From positions 1 to 44,106 of the forward strand of contig JABDLO010000042.1 in NCBI GenBank assembly GCA_013002995.1: a DNA stretch of 44,106 bases, written 5' to 3'. The notes under the pieces are model-generated. The model saw only the letters and a list, made by a program, of their open reading frames with translations. It had not been told where the DNA came from and searched no databases. The translations under genes were made by a program, and so were the position numbers. Positions 38,982 through 43,438 of the stretch are shown piece after piece; the first letter of the stretch is position 1, and each line of letters starts with the position of its first letter. The stretch is from Saprospiraceae bacterium (GTDB lineage: Bacteria; Bacteroidota; Bacteroidia; Chitinophagales; Saprospiraceae).

Positions 38982-41900
38982 TTAACCTAATATTGTCTTA
39001 CGTTGTCTTACTGAAGCGATACCAATGATCATCAGTAAGAAGGAGAGTATAATGATTCCCCATTCTCCCATGGTTGGAATCGGAGCAATCTCACAATTCT
39101 GTCCCGGGAAGATCGCAGGATCAGTATCATCACAATCCTGATTGTTCAATACAAAACCTGGTTGACATGGTCCACACATGGTAACTTCTGTACCAGGATC
39201 ACCGTATCCATCCATATCTACATCTGCATAGCAGGTCTGAGGAGCAGAGTAACACCCAGCTAAGCTCCATGAGTTTAAGGATCCTGTATCTAGTGAAGCA
39301 TCATCATTAACTTCAAGTGTCCATGTACCTGTTATGCATTCACCGTCAAAGGCTGAAAGCGGTTGTAAAGGTTGATAAGTACCACCTCCACCAACAGGAT
39401 CCATACAAGATATTGACATATGATCATTAGGAGATTCATCATCAAAGTTGATGTCAAGATTATCAACATTTCCATTATTACAAGCATCAAACAACAGATC
39501 TACCCTTGTACCAGCAGGGCTAACAAGAGTTATTTCTAAATCTCCAATCCAAGTATGATCCATGGTAAGATTGGTCACATCCATATCAGTTATAAAACCA
39601 TCATCTGGGATATTTAACGTTGATGATATCAATCCAGAAGTGGCGCCACCCCAATCAACCGGAACATCAGTACTTGCCCATGTATTACAAGTTTCACCAG
39701 CAGTAGTAAACTCCCATACCGGGGAAACTTCCATGCCACAACCATTGATACCTGTTACTCTCCAGTAATATGTTGTACCGGCCACACTTCCTGTGAATGC
39801 ATACGTATTGGTCACCAAGGTTTCACTAACCTCCGGTGATCCAAATGCCATATCATCATCTACTTCAAGCAACCAGGAATTGGCACCATTGGTGTTGTCC
39901 CATACCAGATTAGGATTGAATACTCCTGAAGTCATATCTATTGGTGAGATGAGTGATTGAGCAGTTGGAGCTGCATCGCTTATGATAAGATCAACAGTAG
40001 TCATATTGGTAGCCATTCCGTCATCAGCTGTTATGGTGATGGTTGACATTCCTGGAGCTGCAGCTCCAGTTCCAGAAACAGTCATTGTTACCATTGACAT
40101 TGCAGGAGCAGGATTAGGAGAAAATGTAACAGTTGTTCCAGCAGGCTCTCCTGATGAGGATAATGTCCACATTCCCATAGATGCTCCAGTTGTAAGATTG
40201 TATACTGCATCAGCTGGGGCACATATATCCTGTGTAGCAGGAGCCGCATCTAGCAAACATGAAGGTGGCATATCGAATGCTTCTGTTCCGTCATCTCTAC
40301 TAGCTGTACTTCCCTGATCTGCACTGAAACCGAGACCTCTTTTTGCAAAAGCTTCCCAAATAGTGCACTGATTAGCACCTCCAGTGAGAGCCACATCAGC
40401 AGCCAATATGGCATCTCTGCCATCAACAAATCCTGGGCTACATGCAGTAAGTTTCATACCATCCATCACCAATTGCATGGCGAGATTATTACCACCAGTG
40501 GTCCAATCATCATAAATATTTTCATTTAATCCATGTACATCAATAAGTGCCCAGGTCATCTCCCACAACATCATATTCCAAACTTCCCCAACTGGGTGTG
40601 GGAATGGTCCTGTCCCAATTATTGAATTGTAGGTTTGAGGGTTGACCACCATATCTGTTGAATAAGGGAATGTTCTTACTCCCGGGCCATTTTCATCTGA
40701 TCCTAACAGCCAAGTACCAACTGTTCTTGGATCAGCACCATTATCGCCCATTTTTATAGTATGGATAAGTGACATATAGTCGCTCCATCCTTCTCCCATC
40801 TGTTCATCATTATTGAGACATGAAGTATTCATAGGTCCGCCTACAAGCCTGTTAGAAACACCATGGCCAATTTCATGTGTAATAACTTCTGCATCAAGTG
40901 AACCGTCTCTATCAGGTGTTGCTATATCACAGGTGAACATTTGATTTCTTCCACTCGATCCATCTGGAGGTGTGGCAAAATTAGCATTACAATTTCCCCC
41001 GGCATCAGCTGCATCTTGAGCTTCAGAAAGTACCGGATCACCACCTAAACCACCATTTCCATAGTTATTCACCTGAAAATTTCCAGCAGCCTCATCAAAT
41101 CCATATAGATATGTAATATCATGCATGATATTGGTCCAATAAAATAAGTTGGTTACTGATGCTGGCTGATAAGTTATCGGAGCCATACTTAAGTCTATTG
41201 GAAAATTAAAATCCAATGTCATTCCTCCATCAGGATCTGATCCTACATCAGGAATATTATCATCATTTCTGTCAGCATAAGTATGAGTATTATTTCCCTG
41301 AGTCGTTGTGAATTCAGCACCAGCCATACCATCTATATCATGCCATCCAAAGGGACTGCCTGTAGGGTGAGCAGGATCAACTTCAATTGTTCTTGCTACT
41401 CCTCCATCATCATGAGGGCTTGCATTGGGCCATGCATACACATTATAAGAATCAGGAGCAAACATTGCTAACGGATCTTCAAGAGGATTAAAACCTTTAT
41501 TTTCTTCTTTATTACTTAAAGGTGATCCGTGATCATGAGAGTTATGGTCAAATAGTTCTTCAAAACAAGTATCAACCATATTATCTTCATCCAATAATTC
41601 ACCATTGTTGGCATCTACTCTTAGATTGAACCAATTAGCGCCACCTAATTCATATATAGATACTTCCCATGTTAATCTTACTGCTTTGCCAGTATCAACA
41701 TACTTCAATTTAGCAGTAATATTTTCAAGTGATATACCACCCTTAGATATTGTATGAAATTGATCAGGACCATCTTCTTGAGAAAGAATCTGTAAATTTT
41801 CTGAAATATTATATCCTTTTGCTTTTGCTGCTTCACTTACAGCTCGAAGAACTCCTAGAGATGGAGACTGACTTCCAGTCATTCTAGATTCAAAGTCTCT

Positions 41901-42218
41901 GCTGAATCCAACGTTTTTGGTTAATACATTTCCATTGGAAAGGACGTGCATAGAGCCTACTGCATTATGTATATCAATGCCGTTGTATGTCTGACAGAAA
42001 TACATGTGATCAACACCATTTCCTTTGGAAACATAATGATCCGTCATTCGATATTCATCAATATCATCGGCTGTTAATTCTCCTTTTGCTACCATCTCCT
42101 GAAGAGCCTGATCGATCATGGCCTCAGTTCCCTGGGCCGACATATTAATAGTAAAGGAGAGAGAGAAAAATAAAAGAACGCACGGAAATACATTCTTTAA
42201 GAGTGTACTCTTACTCAT
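38982..42218 (-). CDS. Secreted M36 (fungalysin-type) metallopeptidase with P-domain and IPTL-type C-terminal anchor
   Basis: This protein of 1078 residues has a signal peptide, an N-terminal FTP/PepSY-like propeptide (about 35-215), then an M36 catalytic domain with zinc motif HEIGHGVSNR (about residue 446) and a second-ligand region EGWSDYMS (about 474). An Ig-like and a fibronectin-III-like region follow (about 670-850), then a proprotein-convertase P-domain (about 858-990; DHTWIGDLEITLVSPAGT). A Cys-rich thrombospondin-3/MopE-like calcium segment (DVDMDGYGDPG) comes next. The C-terminus has IPTMGEWG, a membrane helix and a short basic tail (RQRKTILG), an IPTL-CTERM-like sorting signal rather than a T9SS domain. 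It is probably surface-bound and proteolytic. Confidence 0.92.
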   Translation of the reverse strand: MSKSTLLKNVFPCVLLFFSLSFTINMSAQGTEAMIDQALQEMVAKGELTADDIDEYRMTDHYVSKGNGVDHMYFCQTYNGIDIHNAVGSMHVLSNGNVLTKNVGFSRDFESRMTGSQSPSLGVLRAVSEAAKAKGYNISENLQILSQEDGPDQFHTISKGGISLENITAKLKYVDTGKAVRLTWEVSIYELGGANWFNLRVDANNGELLDEDNMVDTCFEELFDHNSHDHGSPLSNKEENKGFNPLEDPLAMFAPDSYNVYAWPNASPHDDGGVARTIEVDPAHPTGSPFGWHDIDGMAGAEFTTTQGNNTHTYADRNDDNIPDVGSDPDGGMTLDFNFPIDLSMAPITYQPASVTNLFYWTNIMHDITYLYGFDEAAGNFQVNNYGNGGLGGDPVLSEAQDAADAGGNCNANFATPPDGSSGRNQMFTCDIATPDRDGSLDAEVITHEIGHGVSNRLVGGPMNTSCLNNDEQMGEGWSDYMSLIHTIKMGDNGADPRTVGTWLLGSDENGPGVRTFPYSTDMVVNPQTYNSIIGTGPFPHPVGEVWNMMLWEMTWALIDVHGLNENIYDDWTTGGNNLAMQLVMDGMKLTACSPGFVDGRDAILAADVALTGGANQCTIWEAFAKRGLGFSADQGSTASRDDGTEAFDMPPSCLLDAAPATQDICAPADAVYNLTTGASMGMWTLSSSGEPAGTTVTFSPNPAPAMSMVTMTVSGTGAAAPGMSTITITADDGMATNMTTVDLIISDAAPTAQSLISPIDMTSGVFNPNLVWDNTNGANSWLLEVDDDMAFGSPEVSETLVTNTYAFTGSVAGTTYYWRVTGINGCGMEVSPVWEFTTAGETCNTWASTDVPVDWGGATSGLISSTLNIPDDGFITDMDVTNLTMDHTWIGDLEITLVSPAGTRVDLLFDACNNGNVDNLDINFDDESPNDHMSISCMDPVGGGGTYQPLQPLSAFDGECITGTWTLEVNDDASLDTGSLNSWSLAGCYSAPQTCYADVDMDGYGDPGTEVTMCGPCQPGFVLNNQDCDDTDPAIFPGQNCEIAPIPTMGEWGIIILSFLLMIIGIASVRQRKTILG

Positions 42219-42572: not shown

Positions 42573-42649
42573 GCCTCCTTAGCTCAGCTGGTTAGAGCGG
42601 CGGACTGTTAATCCGTAGGTCCAAGGTTCAAGTCCTTGAGGAGGCGCCA
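42573..42649 (+). tRNA. tRNA-Asn (anticodon GTT)
   Basis: The cloverleaf folds fully in 77 nt: acceptor GCCTCCT with AGGAGGC, D-arm TAGCTCAGCTGGTTAGAGC, and anticodon loop CTGTTAA with GTT at 42607-42609 and stem GCGGA/TCCGT. The T-arm is CAAGG-TTCAAGT-CCTTG, with discriminator G and an encoded CCA. It has its own promoter and terminator. Confidence 0.97.
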
Positions 42650-42651
42650 TG

Positions 42652-42690
42652 AAGGACGTCGTTCATAAAAATGGACTTCGTCCTTTTTTT
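42652..42690 (+). terminator. Terminator after tRNA-Asn
   Basis: AAGGACG pairs with CGTCCTT, the stem continues after a small internal loop with six more pairs, and seven T follow. Together with the tRNA CCA end the left side reads CCATGAAGG, the same nonamer as the arms of the downstream hairpin family. Confidence 0.75.
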
Positions 42691-42700
42691 ATTCCTTGCG

Positions 42701-42730
42701 GTGAAGGTGAAGAGTAACGTAATCCTTCAC
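42701..42730. repeat. Hairpin of the AAGG/CCTT family (left-most copy)
   Basis: GTGAAGG and CCTTCAC form a perfect 7-bp inverted repeat with a 16-nt loop, the same geometry as the hairpins at 43096 and 43295, with changed but still paired arms. Confidence 0.6.
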
Positions 42731-42733
42731 TGA

Positions 42734-42759
42734 CTTTGCCTTCATGGCAAGCCATAAAT
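42734..42759 (-). repeat. Left inverted repeat flanking the GIY-YIG gene
   Basis: This 26-bp segment is the reverse complement of 43084-43109 with one mismatch. It flanks the nuclease gene on its upstream side. Confidence 0.9.
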
Positions 42760-42810
42760 AAGTCATTAAGCATTGATTCATCAATCGACATTCTTTCTTT
42801 ATATTATGGA

Positions 42811-43077
42811 ATGATTTTCTATTACACTTACGTGCTATATAGCTTAAAAGATAATCAACTCTACATTGGGTATACTACAGATGTATTTGAAAGATTAAAA
42901 CAGCATAATAATGGTGAAAGTCTCAGCACTAAATCCAGAATACCGTTCAAGTTGATTTATTATGAAGCTCACCTATCTAAGAATGATGCAATAAGAAGAG
43001 AGAGATACTTTAAAACCTCTCCAGGAAAAAGAACACTTAACCAAATGCTGAGAAGTACTTTAAAACACTTGAAATGA
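42811..43077 (+). CDS. Small GIY-YIG nuclease
   Basis: This 88-residue single-domain protein of the GIY-YIG superfamily (UPF0213/YhbQ-like) shows the paired motifs YTYVLYS and LYIGYTTD, then FERLKQHNNG with the catalytic Arg, a PFKLIYYEA strand, and AIRRERYFKTSPGKR with a Glu in the usual metal-binding place. The ATG at 42811 fits the family N-terminus; an earlier ATG at 42736 would start in the flanking repeat. It lies just downstream of tRNA-Asn between inverted repeats and is followed by two damaged copies of its own 3' half. Small GIY-YIG proteins are often repair- or mobility-related; the target is unknown. Confidence 0.88.
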   Translation: MIFYYTYVLYSLKDNQLYIGYTTDVFERLKQHNNGESLSTKSRIPFKLIYYEAHLSKNDAIRRERYFKTSPGKRTLNQMLRSTLKHLK

Positions 43078-43083
43078 TTAACA

Positions 43084-43109
43084 ATTTATGGCTTGCCATA
43101 AAGGCAAAG
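43084..43109 (+). repeat. Right inverted repeat flanking the GIY-YIG gene
   Basis: Matches the left repeat (42734-42759) in opposite orientation at 25 of 26 positions. It starts 6 bp after the nuclease stop and runs into the hairpin at 43096. Confidence 0.9.
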
Positions 43110-43129
43110 CAAAGCGACGTCCTTTATGG
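43096..43129. repeat. Hairpin element copy 1
   Basis: CCATAAAGG and CCTTTATGG form a perfect 9-bp stem with a 16-nt loop. Compared with the copy at 43295, the A-T pair at arm position 5 has become G-C on both sides, so the stem is conserved by compensation. Confidence 0.85.
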
Positions 43130-43248
43130 AAGATGCAATAAGAAGACTCGTCATGAAGGCAAATAAAATGTGTCCTTCATGAGAAAAGTATTTTAAAACC
43201 AGTTCTGGAAAGAGATCTCTAAAACAAATGTTGCGTAATACGTTATAG
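43129..43248 (+). pseudogene. Decayed GIY-YIG 3' fragment (copy 2), interrupted by a hairpin
   Basis: The translation EDAIRR (43129-43146) is followed by a 36-nt insertion and then EKYFKTSSGKRSLKQMLRNTL and TAG at 43246-43248. Both parts align with DAIRR-ERYFKTSPGKRTLNQML in the intact gene and lie in the same frame. The insertion places a TGA at 43180-43182, so the fragment cannot be read through. The N-terminal catalytic half is missing. Confidence 0.8.
43151..43182. repeat. Hairpin element copy 2, inside the GIY-YIG fragment
   Basis: TCATGAAGG and CCTTCATGA form a perfect 9-bp stem with a 14-nt loop. The terminal C-G pair of the other copies is T-A here, again compensated. Confidence 0.85.
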
Positions 43249-43294
43249 AAAATTCATTAGCATAATAAGATCCATCCAATGAAATGATTGCTTG

Positions 43295-43328
43295 CCATGA
43301 AGGCAAAGCAAAGCGGCGTCCTTCATGG
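43295..43328. repeat. Hairpin element copy 3
   Basis: CCATGAAGG and CCTTCATGG form a perfect 9-bp stem with a 16-nt loop that differs from copy 1 at a single position. It directly abuts the third GIY-YIG fragment and supplies an ATG at 43325. Confidence 0.85.
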
Positions 43329-43438
43329 AAGCATATTTATATAAAGAAGACGCCTTAAGTAAGGAGCAATATTTCAAAACAAGTAAAGGCAAGAGGGCTT
43401 TAAAGCTGATGCTGAGTAATACATTGAATAGATTGTAA
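43325..43438 (+). pseudogene. Decayed GIY-YIG 3' fragment (copy 3)
   Basis: From 43328 the frame reads EAYLYKEDALSKEQYF and then KTSKGKRALKLML with a TAA at 43436-43438. It aligns without gaps to EAHLSKNDAIRRERYF of the intact nuclease. Only the C-terminal third remains. The hairpin's right arm provides an in-frame ATG at 43325, giving a possible 37-residue peptide that is unlikely to be functional. Confidence 0.75.

Follow-up and report, generated by a model that had tools for sequence, protein, structure and literature searches.

The window, by which we mean the whole 44,106-nucleotide stretch of DNA from a Saprospiraceae bacterium analyzed here, contains an intact tRNA-Asn gene that is followed on the same strand by a small GIY-YIG nuclease gene, decayed copies of that gene and a set of hairpins. 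This locus is probably (at a probability of about 0.7) a minimal free-standing homing element of the GIY-YIG type that has the tRNA-Asn gene as its target and regenerates the tRNA, with the hairpins as secondary insertions. The reading draws on the architecture of the locus, the same-strand association of such nuclease genes with tRNA genes, the tRNA fragments displaced beyond them, the agreement of target identity with the protein tree, an empty site in a congener and a hairpin that was inserted as a unit.

All features of the locus are on the forward strand. The tRNA-Asn(GTT) gene at 42573-42649, called by ARAGORN and by the Rfam tRNA model (72.9 bits; locus L021), is the presumed target, apparently rebuilt intact. 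It stands just upstream of the GIY-YIG gene, a neighbor that was absent from the preliminary description of this DNA. A terminator hairpin at 42651-42686 (AAGGACG..CGTCCTTTTTTT) follows the tRNA and is present only in genomes with the element. An outer palindrome at 42646-42751, recovered as entries I1, I2, I4, I5, and I6 of the repeat search (folding z-score -4.8), contains GCCATGAAGGACGTCG, which begins at the 3' end of the tRNA, together with CTTTGCCTTCATGGCAAG. This palindrome encloses the T-run terminator, and it (GCCATGAAGGACGTCG ... CTTTGCCTTCATGGC) matches the reverse complement of the window hairpins. Judged by sequence, the hairpins look like the reverse complement of the outer palindrome minus its inner terminator. 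The intact nuclease gene at 42811-43077 (Pfam PF01541, E = 1.8e-15) encodes 88 amino acids from the ATG at 42811, and its frame stays open further upstream of this ATG. Alignment to the intact gene places the 3' parts of two decayed copies downstream of it: copy 2 at 43125-43245 with 72% nucleotide identity and the older copy 3 at 43328-43428 with 62%.

The region from 42.65 to 43.43 kb has four hairpins intermixed with this intact gene and its two decayed 3' copies, just as the preliminary description had it. Hairpin 0 (42699-42732) has a 9-bp stem with one G-T pair, which bears out the claim of a fourth hairpin of like geometry, and is a weak match to our covariance model (E = 0.003). Hairpin 1 (43096-43129; E = 5e-10) and hairpin 3 (43295-43328; E = 1.3e-10) lie directly 5' of copies 2 and 3, respectively. 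Hairpin 2 (43147-43182, with its stem at 43151-43182; weak match, E = 0.016) lies inside copy 2. The perfect 9-bp stems reported earlier for hairpins 1 to 3 are all present. Hairpin 2 is a clean 34-nt insertion, visible as an alignment gap at 43147-43180 with sequence of copy 2 on both sides, and it shows directly that hairpins of this kind insert as a unit. Three perfect stems of at least 9 bp are found in the 791-base region, while 200 dinucleotide shuffles gave 0.02 on average and never more than 1; folding z-scores range from -2.3 to -4.9. It had been claimed that changes in one arm are matched in the partner arm. This holds in a set of nine hairpins from the window locus and four relatives, where 6/9 pairs vary on both sides (shuffled mean 1.9; 0/500 as high), and the signal is gone when the pairing register is slid.

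A free-standing homing gene is expected to keep its nuclease domain, and the putative catalytic residues Y13, Y15, Y26, G28, R36, H40, and E72 are invariant in an alignment of eight sequences. The nuclease genes are under strong purifying selection (pN about 0.2-0.3, pS 0.77-1.0; only pN and pS are given because dS was saturated). We considered a viral origin of the window protein (P0001) and set it aside: tblastn against phage records gave identities of no more than ~41%, over 63-74% of the protein, PHROG gave no match, and no relative was confirmed in viral_contigs. A weak PADLOC match (E = 5e-4 over 23 residues) was also set aside. A group I intron homing endonuclease was ruled out, as an Rfam scan of 20 loci found only tRNAs and no intron family above threshold.

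The association with tRNA genes extends throughout the genome of the window. Besides UvrC, four loci of this genome carry five small GIY-YIG genes, all of which are beside tRNA genes (Asn, Leu, His, and Arg). On contig C370, tRNA-Leu(CAA) is followed by units of a terminator, a GIY-YIG gene and a 3' part of tRNA-Leu. Of the nuclease copies there, the second is interrupted by a stop and the third is cut off by the contig end; palindromes are inserted in the displaced tRNA-Leu parts. On C386, the tRNA-His terminator is repeated beyond the nuclease gene. On C97 (L018 2064-2330, reverse-complement coordinates), the order is reversed; the nuclease gene is directly upstream of tRNA-Arg(CCT) and is preceded by a broken tRNA-Arg copy. 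The nuclease frame at this locus (G000:C97) ends inside the following tRNA-Arg, so the last residues are encoded by tRNA sequence. Frames likewise end in the tRNA at L038, L043, L047, and L126.

Homologues of the nuclease gene were found in 57/150 genomes of the family and at 80 loci of a general genome collection (genome_contigs), many of them in Patescibacteria, where the association with tRNA genes recurs. Many of these genomes are fragmented or metagenome-assembled, tandem repeats are prone to misassembly, and contig ends hide some neighbors. Among the loci in other Saprospiraceae genomes, 24/29 have a neighboring tRNA and none has it on the opposite strand. The tRNA is on the same strand within 450 bp at 21/29; the remaining three of the 24 are L024 (beside a scaffold gap) and L025, both at tRNA-Asn, and L035, where the tRNA is cut by a contig end. 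As in the window, homologues follow tRNA-Asn at L023, L025, L026, L033, and L052, and runs of N lie at the tRNA of L023 and L024. In genome_contigs, the density of same-strand tRNA genes is 0.341/kb within 450 bp of the nuclease gene vs 0.033/kb further out, and opposite-strand tRNA genes are not enriched (0.014/kb vs 0.025/kb). The nuclease family is not exclusively tRNA-bound, since 59/80 of these homologues have no tRNA within 450 bp. In a tree of 46 proteins, which is based on a short alignment and leaves many forks open, tRNA identity needs 19 changes vs 34.5 when shuffled (0/200 as low). A branch with support of 90/90 separates the Asn proteins from all the others.

A homing gene is also expected to have a functional target beside it, and across loci an intact tRNA is found next to the nuclease gene with a fragment beyond it. 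At 26/46 tRNA-GIY loci, a fragment of the same tRNA or of its terminator is present on the far side of the gene and outscores each of 100 shuffles, as if the tRNA had been interrupted and then rebuilt. The displaced piece is a 3' part when the tRNA is upstream of the gene and a 5' part when it is downstream, and the gap between gene and fragment is mostly under 300 bp. In the Asn clade, a displaced fragment is kept only in L026 (AGGTCCAAGGTTC); the window locus has no significant tRNA-Asn fragment (score 10; 11/100 shuffles as high). The displaced piece often extends along the tRNA sequence with inserted palindromes, which in Saprospiraceae and Patescibacteria alike are mostly in the D-loop (positions 15-23), the anticodon loop (30-36), and the T-loop (55-65). 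When folding stability was ranked within each locus, 24 of the 28 palindromic inserts came out in the top 5% and 15 in the top 1%; these percentages are descriptive and do not form an independent test, as the inserts were picked by alignment after the pattern had been noticed. Related debris is seen away from nuclease genes. At L186 (G000:C260, 2072-2464), tRNA-Arg(TCG) comes after two tandem broken 5' tRNA copies with two palindromes each and no GIY-YIG gene, and this is a decayed or non-autonomous form. In genome G101, displaced 3' tRNA pieces with hairpins come after tRNA-Gly (L174) and tRNA-Glu (L193), with no GIY-YIG gene nearby.

Empty sites, another expectation for a homing gene, were sought in relatives. 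The congener G001, the other genome of the genus that was compared (74% complete), has a tRNA-Asn with a homologous upstream region and a different terminator. There is no GIY-YIG gene or hairpin within 900 bases downstream of it, and the 74% complete genome gave no match to the nuclease or to the hairpin model. The terminator of the element follows tRNA-Asn in only 5/132 family genomes with a tRNA-Asn match (G000, G101, G015, G112, and G119); it is also found in G150 and is absent from the congener. A terminator of the congener type was not recognizable beyond the element in the window (score 13 vs a null maximum of 19.5).

The simplest account of these features is the following proposed route. 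The nuclease of ~88 amino acids would cut inside an unoccupied tRNA gene, and one of the broken ends would invade the homologous tRNA sequence of a donor in a one-sided break repair. Repair would then copy in the rest of the tRNA, the terminator and the nuclease gene, and the far end would be joined to the remaining sequence. The tRNA would be rebuilt in this way, and the old tRNA part, its terminator and any older nuclease gene would be pushed outward. After repeated rounds, the youngest nuclease copy would be next to the tRNA, with decayed copies further out. One-sided repair would account for both of the observed gene orders and for the outward decay of older copies, as at the window locus and on C370. 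The palindromic hairpins would be secondary insertions in the displaced copies, which are free of constraint, and would enter them mainly at tRNA loops. Several points stand against the homing reading: the window has no significant displaced tRNA-Asn fragment, no congener-type terminator is recognizable beyond its element, the congener genome is incomplete, most genome_contigs homologues have no tRNA within 450 bp, and a rebuilt tRNA should restore the cut site, with protection of the host unaccounted for.

The closest parallel is SegB, a GIY-YIG homing endonuclease of phages that is often found with phage tRNAs, makes breaks mapped within tRNA genes and causes tRNA units with truncated segB copies to be amplified (PMC13096335). 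An insertion between tRNA-Arg and tRNA-Ile is also on record (PMC2988022). Like the window gene, SegB of phages T4 and T6 and other Seg proteins are GIY-YIG nucleases beside tRNA genes. Unlike SegB, the window-type genes are chromosomal, encode ~90 amino acids and are beside cellular tRNAs, which appear to be interrupted and rebuilt and to leave displaced fragments with palindromes. We liken SegB and the window protein by architecture and by the GIY-YIG domain that both contain, the latter protein having no PHROG match. Cleavage of the tRNA gene as in SegB would fit the architecture of the loci and the way in which protein clades follow tRNA identity, and the best reading of the tRNA-GIY element is as a probable chromosomal counterpart of phage SegB-type homing. 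Our literature search, which left most subscription papers and preprints outside its coverage, returned no paper on bacterial chromosomal tRNA-GIY elements.

Other known systems share parts of this arrangement. The homing gene at Allomyces atp6, in a fungal mitochondrion, reportedly brings a replacement gene end. Truncated gene duplications are found next to free-standing homing genes at Armillaria atp9 (PMC6506933). As proposed for the tRNA-GIY loci, the target of such fungal genes is regenerated from the copy of the invader and the old end is left displaced; the targets are protein genes in mitochondria, whereas here they are bacterial tRNA genes. Genomic islands with a tyrosine recombinase insert in a tRNA gene, restore the tRNA and leave a duplicated tRNA piece. 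The apparent restoration and the duplicated piece are alike at the tRNA-GIY loci, where the element is under 1 kb. At most of these loci, the nuclease gene and the displaced fragment are ~300 bp apart or less; judged by gap length, an integrase would not fit between them. Organelle GC clusters and double-hairpin elements (PMC4478555; PMC2800124) are likewise short palindromes that multiply near or inside structural RNA genes, while the window hairpins are bacterial and at tRNA-GIY loci.

The preliminary description had tied the hairpins to the GIY-YIG gene and had proposed a search with a covariance model in this and related genomes. Large searches with the model were run behind a pre-filter. 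In its own genome of 5.35 Mb, the hairpin family has four copies, all at the window locus (the first scan scored 150/386 candidates). Among 150 Saprospiraceae genomes, the model matches 6, and all of them have the tRNA-Asn element or, in G112, the terminator without a GIY-YIG gene; four of the 6 supplied sequences to the model, which leaves just G013 and G112 as independent matches. The co-occurrence that had been supposed is supported, and the earlier interpretation stands in part. Family copies in G101, G013, and G112 are also found at tRNA-Pro, tRNA-Ala, tmRNA, an rRNA spacer and a few gene ends, without an adjoining GIY-YIG gene. In the rRNA operon spacer at L216 (G112:C75) and L148 (G013:C51), family hairpins directly adjoin tRNA-Ile and tRNA-Ala at their ends. 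Hairpin families differ from locus to locus. A second palindrome type (CCTGCC; CCTGCCTG...CAGGCAGG) has 1-11 exact copies in 6/7 genomes. Of the copies examined, 7/32 are near a tRNA, some with displaced tRNA pieces and no GIY-YIG gene. Many CCTGCCTG palindromes are far from any tRNA or GIY-YIG gene, and a strictly GIY-bound family was therefore rejected for this type.

How the hairpins relate to the nuclease can be explained in more than one way. They might be REP-like palindromes that have nothing to do with the nuclease, move by a RAYT/Y1 transposase or by replication slippage, and are tolerated in unconstrained DNA. We consider this possible, though we doubt it; it concerns the hairpins alone and would leave room for tRNA homing by the nuclease gene. 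The hairpins had indeed been compared with REP palindromes and their RAYT (TnpA-REP), which are likewise dispersed short bacterial palindromes, some of them near a nuclease or transposase gene (PMC3733652). Y1_Tnp genes are present in 8/10 of these genomes, and palindromes are found at gene ends and at tRNA, tmRNA, and rRNA-spacer sites that have no adjoining GIY-YIG gene. RAYT genes are normally flanked by their own REPs. Against this reading, ten Y1_Tnp loci with up to 1.5 kb on each side have neither a window-family hairpin nor a CCTGCC palindrome (0/10), and a REP/RAYT system was ruled out on this count. Further, the nuclease is a GIY-YIG protein, the four copies at one locus of the own genome fall short of many dispersed copies, the window family tracks the tRNA-Asn element, and G034 has a palindrome in a displaced tRNA-Leu copy and no Y1_Tnp match. 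The association that recurs across genomes is that of GIY-YIG genes with tRNA genes. Alternatively, in a broader version of the idea in the preliminary description, the nuclease and hairpins might be one mobile system. The enzyme would nick or cut the DNA of tRNA loops or hairpins, and palindromes copied into these breaks would mark or block the displaced site. Such a system is rather unlikely. It would fit the inserts in the three loops of displaced tRNAs in Saprospiraceae and Patescibacteria alike, their high stability (24/28 and 15/28, as above), the clean insertion of hairpin 2, and the restriction of the window family to genomes with the element or its remnant. Endonuclease-assisted mobility has also been proposed for the palindromic GC clusters of yeast mitochondria (PMC4478555). 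The one-system reading fits poorly with the differing hairpin families, the distant CCTGCCTG palindromes, the hairpin-bearing tRNA fragments that have no GIY-YIG gene, and the contribution of four of the six positive genomes to the model. A two-part selfish system, widespread on bacterial chromosomes, in which the minimal nuclease breaks into and rebuilds essential tRNA genes and plants hairpins in displaced tRNA loops, perhaps keeping old sites from being cut again, is a shade less credible and also unlikely. The co-occurrence favors some link between nuclease and hairpins, and the palindromes without a GIY-YIG gene argue against strict dependence; mobilization of the hairpins by the nuclease is thus possible and unproven.

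Two further explanations do without mobility of one part or the other. The hairpins at tRNA ends might be functional terminators or processing signals that are alike through function. This is improbable, although the first palindrome begins at the tRNA-Asn 3' end with the T-run terminator inside it and hairpins lie right against the ends of tRNA-Ile and tRNA-Ala in the rRNA spacer; hairpins 1-3 lack a T-run and are 450-680 bp downstream, hairpin 2 interrupts a pseudogene, and the congener ends its tRNA-Asn with unrelated sequence. The small GIY-YIG protein, for its part, might be a cellular enzyme (UPF0213/YhbQ-like, in DNA repair) that is beside tRNAs by chance, with the fragments being ordinary tandem tRNA duplications. 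The solved structures closest to it belong to UPF0213 proteins, which have no known function, and most genome_contigs homologues have no neighboring tRNA. This explanation is highly improbable in view of the patchy presence in 57/150 genomes, the many different tRNAs with a same-strand bias, the protein clade that follows tRNA identity, the stacked decayed copies and the empty site in the congener.

If the homing reading is correct, a class of small GIY-YIG genes that are annotated by domain only would act in Bacteroidota and Patescibacteria as homing elements that target cellular tRNA genes, and the findings on phage SegB would apply to chromosomes as well. Pseudogene fragments of tRNAs and tandem tRNA debris would then have an explanation, and such loci would be a natural record of repeated break-ins at essential genes. 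The spread of short palindromic repeats is poorly understood, and the homing reading would connect such repeats to an endonuclease in a way that can be tested.

Some minor observations were made at other loci and elsewhere in the window. At L153 (G101:C191, 290-1530), a GIY-YIG gene is 3' of tmRNA on the same strand and family hairpins are on the other side of the tmRNA, an arrangement by which tmRNA may be a further target. At L149, L153, and L160 of the same genome, hairpins adjoin GGGTGTGGGTGTG-like simple repeats in three places, which suggests a longer composite unit. Upstream of the tRNA-Asn gene in the window, 38982-42218 on the reverse strand encodes a predicted M36 fungalysin metallopeptidase of 1078 amino acids with a P-domain and an IPTL-CTERM sorting motif.
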